From Lentisphaerae bacterium GWF2_49_21 (GTDB lineage Bacteria; Verrucomicrobiota; Lentisphaeria; Victivallales; GWF2-50-93): a stretch of 64,000 nucleotides of DNA. Every line of letters starts with the position of its first letter. Within the stretch, counting starts at the first letter, position 1. This document shows, one piece after another, positions 11,159 to 58,185 of the stretch. The position numbers were made by a program, and so were the translations under genes. The notes under the pieces are model-generated. The model was not told the DNA's origin and did no database searches. It worked only from the letters and a program-made list of their open reading frames with translations. The stretch is from contig MHBH01000020.1 in NCBI GenBank assembly GCA_001804805.1, forward strand, positions 1 through 64,000, in the 5' to 3' direction.

Positions 11159-11634
11159 GGCCAAGATATGAAAAATGAACATCCGCCGTCGCTGAGAAGC
11201 TTCCGTCTACGCAAGGCCTACGCCGTGACTAGATGGCGGACACAGTCGAACATCCAACATTGAACTTCCAACCTCGAATAAGGAAAGTGGCACAGGACAA
11301 GACATCAATATCGAATATTGAGTTGGATATGATTTCACAGGAAGGGAAGAAAATTCCAAACCAAGAAAAGAACAGCTCTTGCGAGCTTAACTACGAACGA
11401 ATGCAATTATTGAATATGTTTGTAGTCAACGTCGCAAGACGTGTTCTTGATTGTCAGCAGTTAAGTCCCATAAGGGCTGTTCCTGTATTTGTTTGAAAAT
11501 TGGAACTTGTTTAAATTTTGGAAATTGGAGCTTGGAATTTCTCATGAACTGTAAATGCGGTGTTCCGCTTTGAGCGGTTCACAAACTCAAGCCTCCGGCT
11601 CTGCCAGAGGTAGATGACTATTGGACGGGGATGG
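11159..11634. other. Intergenic spacer, AT-rich, repeat fragments
   Basis: No supported gene. Near 11183-11243 is a ccgccgtcgctgagaagctt ... gatggcgg inverted module related to those at about 5594-5620 and 29776-29800. The rest is AT-rich, with gaacgaatgcaattattgaa-type text. A short frame at 11233-11496 has no recognisable content. Confidence 0.55.
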
Positions 11635-45936: not shown

Positions 45937-46749
45937 TCAATACGCTATCTGGGGATTCCTGACCTTGGAGAAGCGAAAGGATACGACCAGCCTTCCGGAC
46001 TCCCTGTTTGTCATGATATGGCACATCAAGTCATTCTTCCTTGCTACAAGCAGCCTGTCTTTTTTTCCTGCATCAGCAAGTTTCAATATATCATCCCAGT
46101 TTTCAGTCTGCCAGCTGTTGATGGCAAGTCTCCTTTTTATTTCTGATATTTCGGCGTCCTCATCGCCTGCCGGGAAGCAGCTGTATATGTCCGAACTGTT
46201 TTCCGTTCCGCCCTTGATGTAAAAATCCGGAATCGACGGCATTATCTTGAGATATTCCGGAGGGATTTCCTGTTCGGAGACCTTGCCGTAGGCCTTTAGC
46301 GAAGTAATTTCCTTGAGATCGCCCTCCAGCGAAGTTATGGCGGTCCCTGAGGGAGTCGCGTCGAAAACATAGCCCCGCACATGGTTTTTCGGGGTCACGA
46401 AACAGATGAAATCGAAATTCTTCTCCTTGACCAGGAAAGAAGGGACCTTGTCGCTTTTCGCGTCCACAGGCTTGTTCCCTTCCGCCTTGTTCTGCCGTAT
46501 GATACGCTCCTTTGCAGCATAGACCGGCGCCTCCTCGAATTCCTTTTTGATGGTGTATGAAACCCCTTTTATATCGAGCGTCCCGGTTCCGGAAAAACTT
46601 GTTGGAATTTTCTCTATGGGAACTTTGTCTGCCGTGACAACAGGCTTGTCAGGCCCCCTTTTCTTGTAAAGGGAGTAATGATAGGAGCCACAGGCGAATA
46701 TCAATCCTGAGAGTGCTGTAATAATTAAAAATCTTATAGTCTTTCCCAT
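45937..46749 (-). CDS. Putative lipoprotein of the Tad operon
   Basis: 270 residues from the ATG at 46749 (AAGGGG just upstream); a frame reaching 46791 runs into the TadE-like gene. Leader with a lipobox-like end (IITALSGLIFACGS). The mature part has a beta-rich, charged sequence (GTLDIKGVSYTIKKEFEEAP, NFDFICFVTPKNHVRGYVFD). No family recognised. Its place between pseudopilin-like genes and cpaB suggests an envelope assembly role. Confidence 0.75.
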   Translation of the reverse strand: MGKTIRFLIITALSGLIFACGSYHYSLYKKRGPDKPVVTADKVPIEKIPTSFSGTGTLDIKGVSYTIKKEFEEAPVYAAKERIIRQNKAEGNKPVDAKSDKVPSFLVKEKNFDFICFVTPKNHVRGYVFDATPSGTAITSLEGDLKEITSLKAYGKVSEQEIPPEYLKIMPSIPDFYIKGGTENSSDIYSCFPAGDEDAEISEIKRRLAINSWQTENWDDILKLADAGKKDRLLVARKNDLMCHIMTNRESGRLVVSFRFSKVRNPQIAY

Positions 46750-46762
46750 ATGCCCCTTATTC

Positions 46763-47401
46763 TTATCCGAAAACCTTGTTAAGCCAGTCAATCATTTTTC
46801 CGATGAACGATTCCCCGGTATATTTGCATGTGTCGCAGCCCGGCATATAGCAGTAGTAGCCGGTGCCGAATTCAGAGGGAGGAGGATTGCCGCCGGCAAA
46901 TGCCGTATAGGCGGCCGATGGAAGCATGGTAGGGGCAGATGCTTTCACGGAGCCGGAGTAAAACACATCCTTGTCGAATACATTGAAAAAATAAGGCTGG
47001 AGATTTCCTCCGGTAACAAGGTTGGCGATGAATTTTAGGATTGCGGGGAAAAGGGGCCCGAGATATTTTTCGACCCAGTCCTGCACCGACTGTATTGCGC
47101 CGCCTATAAGAGACCTCTTGTCGCTGGCGGGATTGATAGTCAGCTTCACGCCTTTTCCGGCACCATCGTCAAAGAAAGCCTTCTCAAGGAAAGAAGAGTC
47201 CACAGTCAGCGTCCCCTGGTTCCTGGCCCTTATTTCGGAAACCAGGCGCTGGGCTCCGTCAAGCCTCTGCTTGATTATCAATACGCGCGGAATGTCAATG
47301 CATATGCATAGCAGGACCAGATAGATCGGCATGACAAGGCCTGTCTCCAGCAGGATGGCCGCCCTGCCGCTCTTCAACCGGTTTCTGTATTTCTGCTCCA
47401 T
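46763..47401 (-). CDS. TadE-like pseudopilin
   Basis: 212 residues. N-terminal basic stretch then a hydrophobic segment (RAAILLETGLVMPIYLVLLC), with a Glu at the position expected for TadE/TadF processing though the residue before the cleavage site is Ala rather than Gly. The rest is periplasmic with Gly/Pro-rich parts and a CDTCKYTGES segment. Minor pilin-like component. Twelve bases separate it from the TadG-like gene. Confidence 0.8.
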   Translation of the reverse strand: MEQKYRNRLKSGRAAILLETGLVMPIYLVLLCICIDIPRVLIIKQRLDGAQRLVSEIRARNQGTLTVDSSFLEKAFFDDGAGKGVKLTINPASDKRSLIGGAIQSVQDWVEKYLGPLFPAILKFIANLVTGGNLQPYFFNVFDKDVFYSGSVKASAPTMLPSAAYTAFAGGNPPPSEFGTGYYCYMPGCDTCKYTGESFIGKMIDWLNKVFG

Positions 47402-47413
47402 GATCCCAAGTCC

Positions 47414-48565
47414 TCAGTGTAACAGGAATTTGTCGAAATATTCCCTGATATTGAATTTTATCTTGATGCCATATTTTTCTATTTCCTGATTGAACCTTAT
47501 ATTGTCTATGGAGATTAGGAATGCATCCGCTCCGACTCCGTAATGGATTGGCCGGTAAGGGTGGTCGTAAGCGGAAGTCATTGTGACATTGCCCCCCTGT
47601 GCCTGTCCCACTGCATACGCAATCACTGGCGGATTCATGTAATTCGAATCGTCCCCTCCCAGGAAGTATTTCGATATGTAGCTCACATCGTTCTTCATCC
47701 AGACACCCCATATCATAGGAGGTATTTTCGTATCCTTGCTCTCCTTGGAACGGTAGGGATCATCCTGCCAGCGTATCTTGGCGGCCAAGTCTATGATATT
47801 GGTATTGGTATTGAGGAGGCCAAGAAGCACCATGTAGGCCTTGCCTCCCGCACCATCAGGGTTCTTTATGTTCAGGGGCATTGTCTTCGCTTCCTGTGAT
47901 TCGATCGGGAGCTTGTAGAATGCGTCTGGAGAGGTAGGTATTCCAATGGCGACAAATCCACCGGTCAGTTTGTTGATCGCTCCTGCTATGAACTCCCATA
48001 TCTTTTCAAGGATGCCTCCTCCGCCTCCGCCAGGTATGGGGATTTTTGGAATTATCCTTTCCGCCCCATTGGCGGATGCTGCATTGTTCGCGGAGAGATA
48101 TCCCATGACCATGGTTCCGGTTGCATAGACCGTTCGCAGTTTAGTAAGGAAAATATCCACAATTATGTTGTGGACCCAGTATCCTGCTCGGGCAATGCCC
48201 CCTGCGACCGATTCAATTGCAAATCCGGCAGGAGCCAGGAAGAGTGTTGCCTCCAGGATTTTCGCTATGCCGGTCATCGCTCCGGCTATTCCGTACAATA
48301 CGGCCACAACGGTATCAGTCTGGTATATCTCGACATTTATGTTCTGTACGAGATTCATCCCCCTGCATTGCCAAACTGCCATCTCCAGGGCCGCGGAATC
48401 TGCCGCGTTCTGGGCCTGTATCTTCTTCCGTGAAACGGCCGAAACATCAAATACTACAGTTACGATTGCAAGTATGAAGAAGGATATGAAGGCAGTATAA
48501 TAGAAGGCGACGCCTCTGTCGCTTTCGATCCTTCTCCAGCAGGTGCTTCCAAATATTCTCGTCAT
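47414..48565 (-). CDS. TadG-like protein
   Basis: 383 residues from the ATG at 48565 (AGGAAA upstream); the longer frame to 48715 begins with text that does not look coding. RRIESDRGVAFYYTAFISFF then FILAIVTVVFDVSAVSRKKI followed by QAQNAADSAALEMAVWQCRG is the TadG pattern (membrane helix then NAADSAAL). The rest is periplasmic and includes hydrophobic stretches (GIAGAMTGIAKILEATLFLA). No von Willebrand domain is evident, so it is a short TadG variant. Confidence 0.85.
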   Translation of the reverse strand: MTRIFGSTCWRRIESDRGVAFYYTAFISFFILAIVTVVFDVSAVSRKKIQAQNAADSAALEMAVWQCRGMNLVQNINVEIYQTDTVVAVLYGIAGAMTGIAKILEATLFLAPAGFAIESVAGGIARAGYWVHNIIVDIFLTKLRTVYATGTMVMGYLSANNAASANGAERIIPKIPIPGGGGGGILEKIWEFIAGAINKLTGGFVAIGIPTSPDAFYKLPIESQEAKTMPLNIKNPDGAGGKAYMVLLGLLNTNTNIIDLAAKIRWQDDPYRSKESKDTKIPPMIWGVWMKNDVSYISKYFLGGDDSNYMNPPVIAYAVGQAQGGNVTMTSAYDHPYRPIHYGVGADAFLISIDNIRFNQEIEKYGIKIKFNIREYFDKFLLH

Positions 48566-48581
48566 GTCTGTCGTTTCCTGG

Positions 48582-50033
48582 TTATGGTGAATTGCAGAAA
48601 TATTGCTTTGAACAATGATCATGGGAGTGGTTCGGATATGCGGTGTCGATTGGCACGTAATGGGGGAATTTGCCGTCGGATGCAAACAAGTCATGGGCCC
48701 TTGATATCTTCGCAATCCTGTTCGAAACCTTTTCGCAATACTTCAGATTAGCGGATTCAGCTCTGGCGCAGGTTGTAAAGTCAGTCGGATCACGGCATCC
48801 CCAGTTCCAGCATTTAAAGAACCAAGTCTTACAATAAGCTGCCTCGTCGCCCTTGTCGCCGCACAAGCCTACGACTTTGCGGGGATCCATCTCCAGTATT
48901 CGCATATAGTCGTTGCACTTGCCTTGGATTTTCGCCCAGAGATTGGCCTCCGTTGTGACGGCTTCGACGTAGTCCGGTTTTCCCGCGGCCTGTTGTCTGC
49001 CACCGTAAGCGGTTTCAATTTTCTCCCTGGCCAATACAGCCTGTTCCCATTCATCTATCAGGTCGGAAGCTTCCGCGATGATCTTCTTCGCCTTTTCCCG
49101 GGCCCGTTTCCGCATTGCTTCGGGATCGATGTTCGCCGTGCCGTCGTCGTTGGCGAAATAATTTTCAAGAAGCTTCTTCTCGGGTTCGACAAGCATGGCG
49201 AAACGCCCGGTAGCCGTCACAGTATCTATTTTTTTGTCGCTTGCCACGGCCCAGAACATGAATGCGCTGTAGAGCCAGCCGCCCTTGTGGAGAGGATAGT
49301 TTATCGACACCTTTATGATCTCGGGATTGCTCCAGGCGTTCGTGTCATAGTCGTCCGACGGGAACTTGAGCTTCCCGGGGATTGGGATTTTTTCGGTGAC
49401 TATCGTCCCCGTCTTGGTGGCCCTCTGCAGCGCCATGTTGAAACGCTGGTTCATCTGCGAAGAATATGTTCCGAATATCTTGTCCAAAAGGGTTTTCAAT
49501 TGACCGTTCAGGAAATCCCTTATCTTCTGCTCCACAGGCTTGATTATCGCCTGGAGGATCTGGGCCAGGATCTTCTGGAAGAAGTTGGCGTCTGCGCCGG
49601 GCGTTATCTCAAAAAGGGGCTTGCTTATCAGGAAATAGCTCTTGAAATCAACCGTGCTGCCAGACGAACTGCTGTCCATCCATGCATAAGTCGAGCTCAT
49701 CATGAAGAAGGAAGTTGCCACCTGGTCTGCGGTATATGTCTTTCCTCCGACCTGCACTTCCGGATACATCGTGTCGGGGTCGTTTCCCTGGTAGCAGTGG
49801 ACCTTGGCGATCCTGGCGACTGAGAACGCAGCGTGGTTCGCCATCACAGTCGTGTCCCAGAACATGCACATCTCGACGATGAAGAGGGAAATCCCTATCA
49901 GGAGAGGGAATGCGAATGCGAATTCGAGGTGGACCGAGGCTCCTTCACCGCTGATCCTCGAACTGATCCTCTTAAAAATCCTTTTCTCACGGTTGTTCCT
50001 GAGAAAGAATGATTTTCCAGAGTCATTGTCCAT
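48582..50033 (-). CDS. Large TadE-like pseudopilin
   Basis: 483 residues. GEGASVHLEFAFAFPLLIGI is a TadE-type leader with Gly before the cleavage site and Glu at +5, followed by a helix (SLFIVEMCMFWDTTVMANHA). The mature part is much longer than usual TadE, with a helical basic region near 300-345 (MRKRAREKAKKIIAEASDLI) and a Cys-rich segment near 410-435 (CKTWFFKCWNWGCRD). Start codon lies a few bases after the prepilin peptidase stop; ribosome site weak. Confidence 0.82.
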   Translation of the reverse strand: MDNDSGKSFFLRNNREKRIFKRISSRISGEGASVHLEFAFAFPLLIGISLFIVEMCMFWDTTVMANHAAFSVARIAKVHCYQGNDPDTMYPEVQVGGKTYTADQVATSFFMMSSTYAWMDSSSSGSTVDFKSYFLISKPLFEITPGADANFFQKILAQILQAIIKPVEQKIRDFLNGQLKTLLDKIFGTYSSQMNQRFNMALQRATKTGTIVTEKIPIPGKLKFPSDDYDTNAWSNPEIIKVSINYPLHKGGWLYSAFMFWAVASDKKIDTVTATGRFAMLVEPEKKLLENYFANDDGTANIDPEAMRKRAREKAKKIIAEASDLIDEWEQAVLAREKIETAYGGRQQAAGKPDYVEAVTTEANLWAKIQGKCNDYMRILEMDPRKVVGLCGDKGDEAAYCKTWFFKCWNWGCRDPTDFTTCARAESANLKYCEKVSNRIAKISRAHDLFASDGKFPHYVPIDTAYPNHSHDHCSKQYFCNSP

Positions 50034-50036
50034 GGT

Positions 50037-50543
50037 TCATGCACCAGTTGTTGAAATGATTACCGCCCAGAGAGTTCCTATCGCGATAGCAAGTCCATAA
50101 GGTATGGTCGGCTGTTTTTTCAGTCCGTGCGAAGGCGTCCCCTTCCTGCCGATGAGCATCCTGAAGAAGTTGGCGGACGTTGTGAGGATGTGCCCGTTCC
50201 AGACGGCATACATGATCGCGATCACCCCGCCTGAAATTACAGTATAGTACAGAACCCACCATATGCTGGGAGTGCCTACAAGGGCTCCGACGGCCGCCAT
50301 AAGCTTGAAATCCCCGCCGCCAAGGACTCCCGCAAGGCAGAATGGCAGGAAAACAGCTCCTCCGATTACAAGCCCGAGCAGCGAATTCATGAACATGTCG
50401 GTGCCTCCAAGCGCAAAGGAGGCCAATAAGGCACATATGATGGCGCCTAATGTGAGCCAGTTTGGGATCGTTCTGCTTTTTATTTCAGTATATGTGGCGA
50501 CAAACAGGAGGGGTGGAAGCAGTATTAATAAAGATTCTCTCAT
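50037..50543 (-). CDS. cpaA: Prepilin peptidase CpaA/TadV with Glu at the first catalytic position
   Basis: 168 residues from the ATG at 50543; a longer frame to 50660 overlaps the third pilin gene. A multi-pass protein with the A24 aspartyl protease motifs: TEIKSRTIPNWLTLG, where the usual Asp is Glu20, and GVLGGGDFKLMAAVG with the second Asp78. It would cleave and possibly methylate the Flp pilins in the inner membrane. Lies directly after the third pilin gene. Confidence 0.88.
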   Translation of the reverse strand: MRESLLILLPPLLFVATYTEIKSRTIPNWLTLGAIICALLASFALGGTDMFMNSLLGLVIGGAVFLPFCLAGVLGGGDFKLMAAVGALVGTPSIWWVLYYTVISGGVIAIMYAVWNGHILTTSANFFRMLIGRKGTPSHGLKKQPTIPYGLAIAIGTLWAVIISTTGA

Positions 50544-50566
50544 GATGAAAATAATCCTTGATGCAG

Positions 50567-50770
50567 TCAGAAAAATGGCATCGAAATTAGAAACACCCTC
50601 AGCATAAGCTCGCTCCGCATGAATTGATAGGCCGGTCCTCCGGGAATCAGCGGAGCACATACCATTATGGCGACAAATGCAAAGAGCATGGAGTATTCAA
50701 GATAAATTGCGGCCCGTTCTCCGGAGAGCCTTTGGAAATACCTGCTGTACCTGTCCGGAGGTTTCTCCAT
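50567..50770 (-). CDS. Flp-like pilin 3
   Basis: 67 residues. GERAAIYLEYSMLFAFVAIM resembles a Flp leader and helix: Glu-Tyr present, but the residue before the expected cut is Ala. The helix is followed by a different, proline-containing C-terminus (APLIPGGPAYQF). Two bases separate it from pilin 2. Whether it is assembled or is a minor pilin is unclear. Confidence 0.78.
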   Translation of the reverse strand: MEKPPDRYSRYFQRLSGERAAIYLEYSMLFAFVAIMVCAPLIPGGPAYQFMRSELMLRVFLISMPFF

Positions 50771-50771
50771 G

Positions 50772-50969
50772 TCATTTGCCCTTCATCTGGGAGTTGACAT
50801 CCTGGACTTTTCCGCTCATGGTATTGAAAAGATCCTTGAGCTGCTTGCCGAAGGCGGCAACTGCAATGGCCACGGCAATGCCCACCAGGGCACAGAGCAT
50901 TGCATACTCAAGAAATGTGGCCCCGGACTCCCCAAGGAACATCCGGGAATATCTCCGGAATTTCTTCAT
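50772..50969 (-). CDS. flp: Flp pilin 2
   Basis: 65 residues. GESGATFLEYAMLCALVGIA is a canonical Flp leader: Gly at -1, Glu-Tyr at +5/+6, then a hydrophobic helix and a short Lys-rich tail. Likely the main pilin, or one of two. AAGGG precedes the ATG. Confidence 0.9.
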   Translation of the reverse strand: MKKFRRYSRMFLGESGATFLEYAMLCALVGIAVAIAVAAFGKQLKDLFNTMSGKVQDVNSQMKGK

Positions 50970-50984
50970 GAAAATTCCCTTGGA

Positions 50985-51194
50985 TTATTTTGCGTCTGAA
51001 AAGTCGCCATCGATTTTGGCTTTTTTGACGTTGTCTGATACGGTTCCAGCCTGGGTGGCCGCTCCGGAGAATATGCTCTTGATGTTTTTCCCGAAAAGAG
51101 CCGCTGCTATTGCCACGACTATTGCTACGAGGCCTGCAAGCATCGCATATTCTATGAATGTAGCCATGGACCTGTTCATCTTCTTACGTCTCAT
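50985..51194 (-). CDS. flp: Flp pilin 1
   Basis: 69 residues. KKMNRSMATFIEYAMLAGLV keeps Glu-Tyr and the hydrophobic helix but has Met where pilins have Gly before the cut. The tail (KKAKIDGDFSDAK) is charged. AGGAGG lies five bases before the ATG, the strongest ribosome site of the operon, so it is probably abundant. Confidence 0.88.
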   Translation of the reverse strand: MRRKKMNRSMATFIEYAMLAGLVAIVVAIAAALFGKNIKSIFSGAATQAGTVSDNVKKAKIDGDFSDAK

Positions 51195-51220
51195 ATCATC
51201 CTCCTGTTAAATATTAATGG

Positions 51221-52432: not shown

Positions 52433-52680
52433 AATGACAAATCCTTTGGATGGTTGGGTGAGAATGGTAAAAAATATTTCCTGTTTTTTCTTTATGTCAG
52501 ACGCTTTGGTCTGACTTTGGACTGCGGTACCCCTGTACCGCTTTGTATTTACTATTAATTCTAACTGGATTCAGAATTCAAAGCGGCAGAGGGCTGCCGC
52601 ACTCCAGAGATTCGCTTTGCTCATCATAAAACCATAGGAATCAAAATCATTAAATCAGTTCATCAATCATCCACCGGCTT
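52433..52680. other. Left part of the divergent regulatory spacer: three short hairpins
   Basis: Between the AraC gene and its operators lie three perfect 7-bp stems: 52496-52515 (gtcagac/gtctgac), 52524-52541 (gcggtac/gtaccgc) and 52583-52600 (gcggcag/ctgccgc). The surrounding text resembles repeat modules in other spacers. No gene. Confidence 0.6.
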
Positions 52681-52718
52681 TATCATACTTTGTATCAACA
52701 TATCATACTTTATGTCAA
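52681..52718 (+). promoter_or_regulatory. Candidate AraC-type paired direct-repeat operator
   Basis: tatcatactttgtatcaa at 52681 and tatcatactttatgtcaa at 52701 are direct repeats exactly 20 bases apart, about two helical turns, as AraC-family regulators prefer. They lie about 90 bases before the isomerase start. Confidence 0.6.
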
Positions 52719-52807
52719 TTGCAATAATACCTCTCCATGTATAAATTCTAAATGATCAAAGATATTTGGTCAAGTAACAAGATCCTAAAATAACAGGAGG
52801 AGTGATA

Positions 52808-53563
52808 GTGAAACCAATTTCAGTCCAGTTGTATTCGCTAAGGGAAGAGTCGAAGAAGGATTTTACAGCGGTCCTCAAGAGGGTCGCGCAGATCGGCTAC
52901 AAGGGCGTCGAACCTGCCGGATTCTACAACTACAAGCCTGTCGAGTTGAGGAAGGTTGTCGAAGATCTAGGAATGAAGATCTCCTCAAGCCACGGCCCGT
53001 GGGCGACCCCGACCAATCTCGCAGAAGCCGAAGAGACCGCCAAGATCCTCGGCCTCGACATCGTTTCCACAGGCTATGGCCCCAATGAGTTCAAGGACAT
53101 GGATGCGATCAAGAAAACAGCAGAAACGGTAAATGGCATGATAAGTGTACTTAAGAAAGCAGGGCTTGCCCTGTTCCTCCACAACCACTACTGGGAGTTC
53201 GAGCAGATCGATGGCAGGCTCAAATACGACTATTTCGCGGAAATGTGCCCGGAAGCCCTTTTCGAAATAGACACCTACTGGGCGGCGAACTTCGGCGCGA
53301 ACGATCCTGCTGAACAGGTCGCGAAGTTCAAGAAACGCACTCCTCTCCTCCACATCAAGGACGGTCCGCTCGAGAAGGACAAGGCGATGGTCGCAGTCGG
53401 CAAAGGCAAGATGGATTTCAAGAAGGTCATAGCCGCCGCTGATCCGAAAATCCTCCGCTGGCTCGTTGTCGAACTCGACAAGTGCGATACCGACATGTTC
53501 CAGGCCGTCGAAGACAGCTACAAGTACCTTGTCGCAAGCAAACTCGGGGAGGGGAACAAGTAA
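52808..53563 (+). CDS. Sugar phosphate isomerase/epimerase (AP endonuclease 2 family TIM barrel)
   Basis: About 251 residues starting with GTG at 52808; AGGAGG at 52795-52800 is seven bases upstream of it, while a GTG at 52802 would be too close. PISVQLYSLREESKKDFTAV, YKGVEPAGFYNYKP and LFEIDTYWAANFGA plus TPLLHIKDG are typical of xylose isomerase-like TIM barrels with metal-binding Glu, Asp and His. Likely isomerises or epimerises a sugar or its keto product. Two bases before the partner oxidoreductase gene; under AraC control by context. Confidence 0.85.
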   Translation: MKPISVQLYSLREESKKDFTAVLKRVAQIGYKGVEPAGFYNYKPVELRKVVEDLGMKISSSHGPWATPTNLAEAEETAKILGLDIVSTGYGPNEFKDMDAIKKTAETVNGMISVLKKAGLALFLHNHYWEFEQIDGRLKYDYFAEMCPEALFEIDTYWAANFGANDPAEQVAKFKKRTPLLHIKDGPLEKDKAMVAVGKGKMDFKKVIAAADPKILRWLVVELDKCDTDMFQAVEDSYKYLVASKLGEGNK

Positions 53564-53565
53564 CC

Positions 53566-54666
53566 ATGGCTTCAAAAATGAGAATCGGTATCATTGGCTG
53601 CGGAAACATCAGCAAGACTTATTTCACGAACGGTCCGACATTCCAGGACATCGAGATCGTCGCATGCGCCGACATAAACATGGCCGCGGCCGAGGCGAAA
53701 GCAACGGAGTTCAAGGTCAAGGCGATGACGGTTGACGAGATCATAAAGAGCCCTGATGTGGATCTTATCGTCAATCTCACGATTCCTGCCGCCCACGCCG
53801 AGATCAATCTCAAGGCGCTGAATGCCGGCAAGCATGTCCATTGCGAAAAGCCTCTCGCCATCACGCTCGCGGACGGGAAGAAGATAATCGATCTTGCAAA
53901 GAAGAAGAAGCTCAGGGTCGGCTGCGCCCCTGACACCTTCCTCGGCGCCGGACTCCAGACTTCCAGGAAGATCATCGACGACGGCTGGATCGGCAGGCCT
54001 CTTGCAGGAACCGCCTACATGATGGGACGCGGACCTGAAGCATGGCATCCGAATCCGTTCTTCTTCTACCAGACCGGCGCGGGCCCGATGTTCGATCTCG
54101 GACCGTACTACATGACGGCTCTTGTGCATCTGCTTGGGCCGGTAAAGACCGTTTCAGCCTGCACGCAGACTTCGTTCCCAGTCAGGATCGCAGGATGCAA
54201 GGAGCATTTTGGCGCGAAGATCAAGGTCGAAGTTCCGACGCACTGCTCCGGAACGCTTGAGTTCCACAATGGCGCGATGATAACGGTTGTCATGAGCTGG
54301 GAATGCTGGAAGCACGCACACAGCCCGATCGAGATATACGGATCTGAGGGAAGCATGATGGTTCCGGATCCCAACACCTTTGGCGGGCCCGTGAAAGTCT
54401 TCCGTCCCGGCAACGAGAACTGGTCGGAATCAGTGCTCACCCACAAGTATGCCAAGAACTCGCGTATAATCGCTGCTGCGGACATCGCTGCTGCAGTGAA
54501 GAAGGGAAGGCCCCACAGGGCTTCCGGCGAGCTTGCATACCATGTTCTTGAGATAATGCATGCGTTCGAGCTCTCATCCAAGAGCAGGAAGCATTATGAG
54601 ATGAAGAGCAAGTGCGCACAGCCTGCTCCGCTCCCGACGGATCTCATGGAAGGGGTCCTCGACTGA
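53566..54666 (+). CDS. Gfo/Idh/MocA family oxidoreductase
   Basis: 366 residues from the ATG at 53566 (GGGAGGGG a little upstream). MRIGIIGCGNISKTYF has the Rossmann GxGxxx motif, and GKHVHCEKPLAITL the EKP catalytic lysine; the C-terminal domain holds AGPMFDLGPYYMTALVHLLG, placing the usual Asp/His/Tyr pocket. NAD(P)-dependent sugar or inositol oxidoreductase. Forms a two-gene operon with the isomerase and ends at an intrinsic terminator. Together they suggest catabolism of a sugar through a keto intermediate. Confidence 0.93.
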   Translation: MASKMRIGIIGCGNISKTYFTNGPTFQDIEIVACADINMAAAEAKATEFKVKAMTVDEIIKSPDVDLIVNLTIPAAHAEINLKALNAGKHVHCEKPLAITLADGKKIIDLAKKKKLRVGCAPDTFLGAGLQTSRKIIDDGWIGRPLAGTAYMMGRGPEAWHPNPFFFYQTGAGPMFDLGPYYMTALVHLLGPVKTVSACTQTSFPVRIAGCKEHFGAKIKVEVPTHCSGTLEFHNGAMITVVMSWECWKHAHSPIEIYGSEGSMMVPDPNTFGGPVKVFRPGNENWSESVLTHKYAKNSRIIAAADIAAAVKKGRPHRASGELAYHVLEIMHAFELSSKSRKHYEMKSKCAQPAPLPTDLMEGVLD

Positions 54667-56049: not shown

Positions 56050-58185
56050 ATGAATTTACTGACTTGGGATAAGAAATCTTTCATCATAGATGGGAAACGC
56101 GGTTTCCTGCGTTCAGGCGAGTTCCACTATTTCCGGGTTCCAAAGAAGGACTGGAAGCGCCGGCTGGATCTCTTTAAGAAAGCTGGAGGGAACTGTGTGG
56201 CGACATACGTCCCATGGTGCCTCCATGAACCTGAAGAGGGGAAGTTCCTGTTTGGCGATTGTGACGAACGCGATGTCGAGACATTCTTCAAGCTGTGCAA
56301 GGATGCCGGCCTTTATGTGCAATGCCGTCCCGGTCCGTACGTCTATTCCGAACTCTACTGTCACGGGCTTCCCAGATGGCTCTGCGAGAATTACCAGGAG
56401 ATCCTTGCCAGAAACGCGAAAGGCGAGATCTTCCAGTACCAGTCGATCTCATATCTCCATCCGAGATTCCTTGCGAAAGTCGCAAATTGGTACGACAAGG
56501 TTGTGCCTATCATAAACAAATATTCTGTGGACAACGGCGGACCTATTGCGCTTGCGCAGGTCGACAACGAACTGATGGGGATACACGAGTGGTTTGGGAG
56601 CCTCGACTACAACCGCGCATCCATGGGGATTGGCGTAAGGAACGGACGGTATCCGGAGTTCCTGAAAAAACGCTACGGGAGAATTGGCTTCCTGAACAAG
56701 GCGTATTCTGCGAAGTTCGCAGATTTCCACAAGGTCATGCCGCTTCCCGAGATTTCACAGAAGACAGTCGAGGATAGGAGACGGGTGAAGGATTATCAGG
56801 ATTTCTATTTCCAGTCCTGTGCCGAATATTTAGCCATCCTGAGCATCATGCTGCGTAAGCGCGGTGTGAAACTCCCGATCACGCACAACAGCGGCAATCC
56901 GTCAATGAACTCTTATTTCCATGAAACCATCGGATATACCGGTTCAAAGGAGTTCATTCTTGGGAGCGACCATTATTACAATCTTTCGCAGGACTGGGAT
57001 CAGAACAATCCGACTCCGAAATATGCGGGGAAATGCTTCTATTCAAATGAAATGCTCCGCCTCTATGGATTTCCTCCGACGATATTTGAACTTCCGGGTG
57101 GAAGCCAGGCCGCCTGGCCTCCATCCCTGCCGGAGGACATGAACTGTGCGTATATGCTCAATGTCGCGTTCGGGATGAAGGGCTTCAACTATTATGTCTA
57201 CACCGGCGGACCTGACAATCCACAGAACATCAGCTACAAGAACAATTATGACTACAACGCTTTCGTATCGGGTGACGGAAAGATCAGGCCGACTTTCAAG
57301 ATGATGGAAGGATTTCATAAGTTCCTGATCAGGAACCGTTGGCTCGCGGAGGCGGAGCTTGTTTCAGATTTCCAAATCGGACTCGACTGGGAGCAGACCC
57401 GCAGCCACCATTATTTCTCCAGCCGTGGAGATTTTCTCTTTGGAAACAACGAGGCGTGGCAGTTCCTGCAAAAAGGGATCACGATGACGGCCCTGAACAA
57501 TTCCTATACTCCGGGCTTCTCAGATCTATATTCGGATGCAATCCTCAGGGAAAAATCAAAACCTCTTTTCGTTCCGACTTCAGCCTGCATGGCGGAACAT
57601 GTCCAGGAACGGCTCGTGAAATTCGTGAAGTCCGGAGGACGGCTTATCATTGCTCCGGTCATTCCTTATCTTGATGAAAACTTCAACCCGTGCACAGTCC
57701 TTTCAAAATTCCTTGGAGGTGCCAGGTCGGAGGCGGGGACAAGTCCAAAGGTGATCGCGCCTGCGTTCAAGATCGGTCAGACTCTGATGAGGGATAAATA
57801 TTTTGTTTTCACTGCTGTTCCCCGGAATGCTGAAATCATCGCCAGGGCGCAGGACAAGGAAGCGGTCGTCGGTTTCAAAAATAAGGTTGGGAAGGGAACT
57901 GTGGTTGCGCTCGGATACCAGTGGCACCACAGCTACGACGAACATAGCAATGTGTTCCGCCATCTTTTGGAGCTTGCAGGGGCAGGGCGGACGGTGGTCA
58001 CCTGCGACAATCCGAACATCTGGGCGGTTGTCCGGTCCGATGGGAAACGCTCGATGCTGTTTGTGATGAATCTTTTTGCATCGCCGCAGAAGGCGAATGT
58101 GTTGGTGCGGGGGAAGGCGGGAAAAATCAGGATTGCAAAATCCTTCAGACTTGCACCGATGGCGGTTGAAACGGTGATGATATAA
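56050..58185 (+). CDS. Glycoside hydrolase family 35 beta-galactosidase
   Basis: 711 residues. The TIM barrel opens with RSGEFHYFRVPKKDWKRRLD and NCVATYVPWCLHEPEEGKF, family hallmarks of GH35. GGPIALAQVDNELMG puts the acid/base at Glu174 (usually QVENE, here QVDNE) and FELPGGSQAAW puts the likely nucleophile at Glu347. The second half has beta domains (about 430-711) including a glutamine amidotransferase-like segment. Retaining exo-beta-galactosidase. No signal peptide is visible, so probably cytosolic, acting on imported oligosaccharides. AAAGGG before the ATG. No partner gene. Confidence 0.92.
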   Translation: MNLLTWDKKSFIIDGKRGFLRSGEFHYFRVPKKDWKRRLDLFKKAGGNCVATYVPWCLHEPEEGKFLFGDCDERDVETFFKLCKDAGLYVQCRPGPYVYSELYCHGLPRWLCENYQEILARNAKGEIFQYQSISYLHPRFLAKVANWYDKVVPIINKYSVDNGGPIALAQVDNELMGIHEWFGSLDYNRASMGIGVRNGRYPEFLKKRYGRIGFLNKAYSAKFADFHKVMPLPEISQKTVEDRRRVKDYQDFYFQSCAEYLAILSIMLRKRGVKLPITHNSGNPSMNSYFHETIGYTGSKEFILGSDHYYNLSQDWDQNNPTPKYAGKCFYSNEMLRLYGFPPTIFELPGGSQAAWPPSLPEDMNCAYMLNVAFGMKGFNYYVYTGGPDNPQNISYKNNYDYNAFVSGDGKIRPTFKMMEGFHKFLIRNRWLAEAELVSDFQIGLDWEQTRSHHYFSSRGDFLFGNNEAWQFLQKGITMTALNNSYTPGFSDLYSDAILREKSKPLFVPTSACMAEHVQERLVKFVKSGGRLIIAPVIPYLDENFNPCTVLSKFLGGARSEAGTSPKVIAPAFKIGQTLMRDKYFVFTAVPRNAEIIARAQDKEAVVGFKNKVGKGTVVALGYQWHHSYDEHSNVFRHLLELAGAGRTVVTCDNPNIWAVVRSDGKRSMLFVMNLFASPQKANVLVRGKAGKIRIAKSFRLAPMAVETVMI

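Follow-up and report, generated by a model that had tools for sequence, protein, structure and literature searches.

The 64,000-nucleotide stretch of DNA analysed here (the window) contains two direct repeats of 18 bp beside a gene for an AraC-family regulator, which raises the question of whether they form an operator, by which protein it is read and what binding would bring about. A sequence-only reading had taken the repeats for AraC-type half-sites in a divergent layout, and the layout proved to be correct: the regulator is encoded on the minus strand, an operon on the plus strand, and the repeats lie between them (Table 1). The repeats are very likely an AraC-type operator, with the neighbouring AraC-family protein as its predicted binding partner. 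This prediction draws on comparison within the order, from which the paired element, its 20-bp register, a fixed orientation, a place at a -35-like hexamer and an association with the AraC lineage and the operon are apparent.

Table 1. Features around the predicted operator, with positions in the window.
Feature	Position	Strand	Remarks
AraC-family regulator, 261 aa	51647-52432	-	HTH at approx. residues 172-250
Dispersed repeat element	52490-52637 (ends approximate)		between araC and operator
Distal (promoter-upstream) half-site TATCATACTTTGTATCAA	52681-52698	+	core ATACTTTGTATCAA at 52685-52698
Proximal half-site TATCATACTTTATGTCAA	52701-52718	+	core ATACTTTATGTCAA at 52705-52718; kept through TTG to 52721
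Candidate operon promoter	52719-52747	+	-35-like TTGCAA 52719-52724, 17-bp spacer, -10-like TAAATT 52742-52747
Xylose-isomerase-like TIM barrel (AP_endonuc_2)	52808-53563	+	first operon gene
Gfo/Idh/MocA oxidoreductase	53566-54666	+	second operon gene

The two copies are identical at 16 of 18 positions and lie in direct orientation, 20 bp from start to start. The 20 bases previously given as their distance are thus correct as a period, but not as a gap, which measures 2 bp. When the 369-bp intergenic region (52433-52801) was subjected to dinucleotide shuffling, none of 2000 shuffles reached 16/18 or better at any offset between 18 and 40; at least 15/18 was reached in 5 and at least 14/18 in 69 of the 2000. 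The paired 18-bp direct repeats were therefore confirmed as such. The repeat alone is unusual and not unique, since another 16/18 pair of comparable offset (25) is present in the 64-kb window at 11492, in A+T-rich sequence. With up to three mismatches, a degenerate form of the 18-mer occurred twice in the window, compared to 0.12 expected occurrences, and 20 times in the whole 5.9-Mb genome (reversed control: 11). Only the two window copies matched it genome-wide with no mismatch.

In close relatives, ATAnTTTnnRTCAA-N6-ATAnTTTnnGTCAATTG was found before the operon in all four intergenic regions, namely in G004, G005 and G006 of the same genus and in G002 of the same family. The order of the AraC, TIM-barrel and Gfo genes is kept in these four genomes as well. 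The half-site core was defined as the final 14 nt of either copy because this is the part kept by the relatives; the leading TATC of the window's distal copy showed no conservation among them. Degeneration of the distal half-site in the relatives was considered and rejected, as the 14-nt core ATAnTTTnnRTCAA is intact in 4/4 of the aligned sequences.

The comparison was extended to 137 genomes of the order, with up to 19 candidates scored per genome and a match at E ≤ 1e-30 counted as AraC homologue. Such a homologue is present in at least 72 of them. The upstream regions of 83 listed AraC matches were taken, of which 82 were long enough (L014 with 31 bases was dropped), and a second, partial AraC piece of G001 (L016) was left out of the counts. 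The proximal core ATAnTTTnnRTCAATTG (pattern ATANKTTNNRTMAATTG) was detected with at most two mismatches upstream of 66 of the 82 listed homologues including that of the window, compared to 0/82 for the reversed pattern and 2/82 on the opposite strand. This search pattern carries no information on the distal half; RT[CTA]AA was nevertheless observed exactly 20 bp upstream of the proximal half in 54 of the 66 sites, followed by offset 16 with 16/66. The strict form RTCAA gave 32/66 at offset 20, none at 16 and not more than two at any other offset between 5 and 59, and for this reason the signal at 16 was attributed to the A-rich sequence that separates the halves. When the columns are compared, the distal half mirrors the proximal one (ATA...T...GTCAA). 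Spacing and direct orientation, on which the assignment as AraC-type half-sites had been based, are thus found in the order as well.

A matrix built from the 65 other loci, with the window left out, placed the window's proximal site (17 nt) first among 127,968 positions with 24.5 bits, the next position reaching 8.8. With 14-nt cores, the proximal half ranked first (18.9 bits) and the distal half second (14.5 bits), followed by 13.8 bits. The halves also seem to have changed together in some loci: where the proximal RTNAA carries A in third place, the distal half does so in 5 of 8 sites, compared to 2 of 58 where it carries C. Since four of the five co-changed sites (L028, L029, L030, L035) belong to one genus, this was probably a single event and is not leaned on here; the fifth (L131) is questionable as a site and lies 2 bp from the araC match.

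In the window, the site and the araC match are 250 bp apart, compared to approx. 50 bp in the four close relatives, because a dispersed repeat has been inserted in between. BLAST gave 54 matches to the element in the genome, itself among them; 11 other copies were aligned, and the element is absent from the four aligned relatives. It contains two terminator-like hairpins on opposite strands (0.2 expected) and may insulate araC or weaken its expression. A 10-nt match about 200 bp upstream, CTTTATGTCA at 52490-52499, had been a candidate for a third, looping half-site. It was not counted as such since the stretch belongs to the dispersed element, most copies of which (11 others aligned) read TTTAYGTCA at this place. 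A conserved third half-site in the manner of araO2, about 200 bp away, was not found in the four relatives, where araC and the site are only some 50 bp apart. In another genus (L015/L108, G001:C494), a different stretch with a palindrome (gccagtct...agactggc) is situated at this place between araC and operator.

The regulator carries the DNA-binding domain of its family, with 69.9 bits for PF12833 and 55.6 bits for PF00165, both over the cut-off, and both Pfam families of the two-HTH domain were matched in 24/24 aligned homologues. An N-terminal ligand-binding, cupin-like domain is usual in the AraC/XylS family, though not universal. Pfam recognised no N-terminal effector domain in the window protein, and among the homologues PF02311 (N-terminal ligand-binding, cupin-like) was matched weakly in 3/24, with a best E of 0.011. 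An AlphaFold model calculated from a three-sequence alignment had a mean pLDDT of 35.8, too poor for structural use.

The first operon gene probably starts with GTG at 52808 after AGGAGG, as read against relatives, while the list of open reading frames gives 52802. The nearest solved sequence to its product is 8bvk (E 2.7e-19), described as AtOGE, an Agrobacterium O-glycoside beta-eliminase acting on 3-keto-glycosides (PMC10628242). For the Gfo protein it is DgpA (7xr9, E 7.6e-20), which is described as oxidising puerarin at C3'' (PMC11239390). Among the NCBIfam matches listed, none was over its cut-off. The operon had been called a sugar isomerase/oxidoreductase operon, of which a TIM-barrel/oxidoreductase operon was confirmed; "sugar isomerase" is a superfamily label, however, and the nearest structures are 3-keto-glycoside enzymes. 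This suggests that 3-keto-glycoside chemistry would fit the operon better than a sugar isomerase, which is a lead rather than a result.

Two further features were observed nearby. A GH35/GH42-like glycoside hydrolase is encoded at 56050-58185, approx. 1.4 kb downstream of the operon, and tblastn (1e-3) did not detect it within the 12.8 kb around L017, the homologue in GWF2_50_93. The minus-strand genes at ~46000-51200 resemble, by eye only, a cluster for a Flp/Tad-type pilus, with TadE-like proteins and a prepilin-peptidase-like protein.

A 28-nt pattern of the paired site with its 20-bp period was found at 90 places in 65 of the 137 genomes, and its reversed control at 3 places. Before this pattern was drawn, 22 loci and G001 had already been examined; 42 of the 65 genomes were new to it. 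As an unplanned spacing control, a slightly stricter version with a 21-bp period gave 4 places in 2/137 genomes (its own control: 1) and missed the window. Conservation in relatives, which had been named beforehand as a test, is therefore seen for the paired repeat across many genomes of the order.

At 48 of the 90 places, a listed AraC homologue has the paired site in its upstream 400 bp, and the site points away from AraC in 48/48. Concerning the remaining 42, the surroundings of 37 were fetched, two (G001) were read, and three (G032:C98:14360, G034:C124:6714, G087:C40:35522), which lie past the 3' end of an AraC gene, were left out. Among the 37 fetched sites, 17 precede a TIM-barrel homologue by 98-155 bp, measured from the first base of the site to the match start. 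These 17 have no match to an AraC of the window type in the stretch examined, and a Gfo homologue then follows in 9 of them. That the other 20 of the 37 do not precede the TIM gene counts against the proposed reading.

Operon and site also go together where the regulator is linked. Within the stretches examined, a TIM or Gfo homologue was found near 56 of the 66 AraC genes with the site compared to 3 of the 16 without it. The other 10 AraC loci with a site had no TIM or Gfo match in the stretch examined, and two of the 16 homologues (out of 82) without a site, L144 and L148, still adjoin a TIM homologue. Counted per genome (137, with up to 19 AraC candidates each), regulator and site occurred together in 59, the regulator only in 13, the site only in 6 and neither in 59. 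Fisher's test gave a p of 9e-19 for this co-occurrence, a value uncorrected for shared ancestry and not to be taken literally since relatives are not independent samples.

A probable promoter of the operon adjoins the proximal half. This half ends with RTCAATTG, the nearly invariant TTG of which opens the -35-like hexamer. Among the spacers between 10 and 25, a -10-like hexamer (at least 4/6) was most frequent at 17, in 37 of 66 sites, followed by 22 (24/66) and 16 (21/66); the one in the window matches at 4/6 only. A generic promoter scan of the window did not have the TTGCAA/TAAATT promoter among its predictions, so that the promoter is derived from comparison alone. A weak, activator-dependent promoter may well escape such a scan. 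Judged by these motifs, the proximal half is placed against the -35-like hexamer in the way known from AraC-type activation at -35.

According to the proposed mechanism, the divergently encoded AraC-family protein would bind both half-sites in tandem in the 20-bp register, i.e. about two helical turns. Since the -35-like hexamer directly follows the downstream half-site, the protein bound there could touch RNA polymerase. In the presence of the effector, the TIM-barrel and Gfo/Idh/MocA operon (52808-54666) would then be switched on. Provided that the neighbour binds, activation is likely, rather than repression. The effector may be related to a glycoside or a 3-keto-sugar.

It is less likely that the neighbouring protein binds the site and mainly represses or autoregulates araC instead of activating the operon. 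In 61 of 66 loci, 33-125 bp separate the site from the start of the araC match (at most 125 bp in 62/66), a distance from which it could also affect araC. Against this, seven genomes (G025, G027, G030, G031, G125, G130, G134) hold the site at an unlinked TIM-barrel operon and an AraC homologue without it. The proximal half, moreover, adjoins the -35-like hexamer of the operon, and the araC gene of the window is 250 bp off behind an element with terminator-like hairpins. An autoregulated AraC system, as expected by the sequence-only reading, may thus exist but is not the general case, because these seven genomes carry the site at the operon instead of at the AraC gene. The site goes with the operon, which speaks for operon control and against autoregulation as the conserved role. 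The 16 AraC homologues without the site, 3 of them beside a TIM or Gfo match, and the 10 that have it but lack such a match weigh on the other side.

The operator could also be a real one of the AraC type whose main reader is a different AraC paralogue, with other targets for the neighbour. The genome contains 76 matches to HTH_18 (AraC HTH), any of which might provide such a paralogue, 42 of the 90 sites in the order fall outside the 400 bp upstream of any listed AraC homologue, and six genomes have the site without an AraC match at E ≤ 1e-30 among the scored candidates. This is quite improbable, however, given the fact that the AraC lineage is linked to the site and co-occurs with it, and that the window's own genome has one paired site only despite its 76 AraC-type matches. 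That the repeat arose by chance in an A+T-rich spacer, or as a side effect of the dispersed element's insertion, can practically be dismissed: a comparable 16/18 repeat exists elsewhere in the window and the element was inserted just upstream, but no shuffle out of 2000 was as good, both cores are present in the four aligned relatives without the element, and the footprint is seen across much of the order.

The sites at other genes may indicate further targets. Of the 20 fetched sites that do not precede a TIM gene, 19 were read by translation (L182 was left out). They precede other Gfo oxidoreductases (L155, L165, L176), GH3-like enzymes (L156, L175) and an FAD oxidoreductase (L160, L161), and at these seven loci the operator is located approx. 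100-150 bp ahead of the gene; they possibly represent a wider regulon. Pseudopilin-like genes with FTLIELLVV-type N-termini follow the site at L164 (G033), L171 (G089) and L174 (G111). The three related copies of G001 (L045, L053, L108) also precede pseudopilin-like sequence by eye, which makes four genomes in all. Three other genes follow at L170, L172 and L173, and six sites (L153, L157, L167, L168, L169, L179) have no plausible downstream gene.

A rather doubtful, tentative idea is that a small regulon dedicated to the breakdown of 3-keto-glycosides is marked in Lentisphaerota by the operator, RTCAA-N15-RTCAATTG with its ATAnTTT cores. The site would be inherited with the operon while its AraC linkage drifts, and in some genomes it would have been recruited to more glycan genes, such as those of GH3-like enzymes and other Gfo oxidoreductases, and to surface genes of the pseudopilin-like kind. 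If this were true, one sugar signal would control both catabolism and surface proteins.

The mechanism is a textbook one and the site is a clear example of a familiar kind. New are the operator shared within the order, the promoter geometry, the target operon and the reason for the odd distance to araC. For one of dozens of AraC-type regulators in the genome, an operator, a promoter and a target operon are thereby predicted. The substrate may become easier to find with the search pattern, which matched in 65 of 137 genomes and in many cases ahead of the same enzyme genes. By title and start of the abstract, and among the matches listed, no published binding site for an AraC-type regulator in this phylum was found. 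Judged in the same way, none of the literature on AraC half-sites (direct repeats, class II, ara sites) describes the site of the window.

In E. coli, araI1 and araI2 are half-sites in direct orientation with a 21-bp period. As with E. coli AraC at araBAD, an AraC-type HTH protein and two half-sites next to a promoter are present here; unlike araI1-araI2, the period is 20 bp, the half-site sequence is another one, and no third looping site is established. E. coli AraC is described as shifting to araI1/araI2, closer to RNA polymerase, upon addition of arabinose (PMC6018408). For SphR of Pseudomonas aeruginosa, two direct-repeat half-sites typical of the family, few targets and binding in gel shifts are described (PMC3900636). 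The two direct-repeat half-sites of the window resemble its operator. The SphR half-site is TGNCCSNNRNNSNCC with 6-8 bp between the repeats, compared to the A+T-rich ATAnTTTnnRTCAA with 6 bp between the cores here. Concerning the enzymes, AtOGE and DgpA are the nearest solved relatives of the TIM and Gfo proteins of the window, at moderate similarity (E ~1e-19), and the operon of AtOGE is described as holding a Gfo oxidoreductase as well (PMC10628242).
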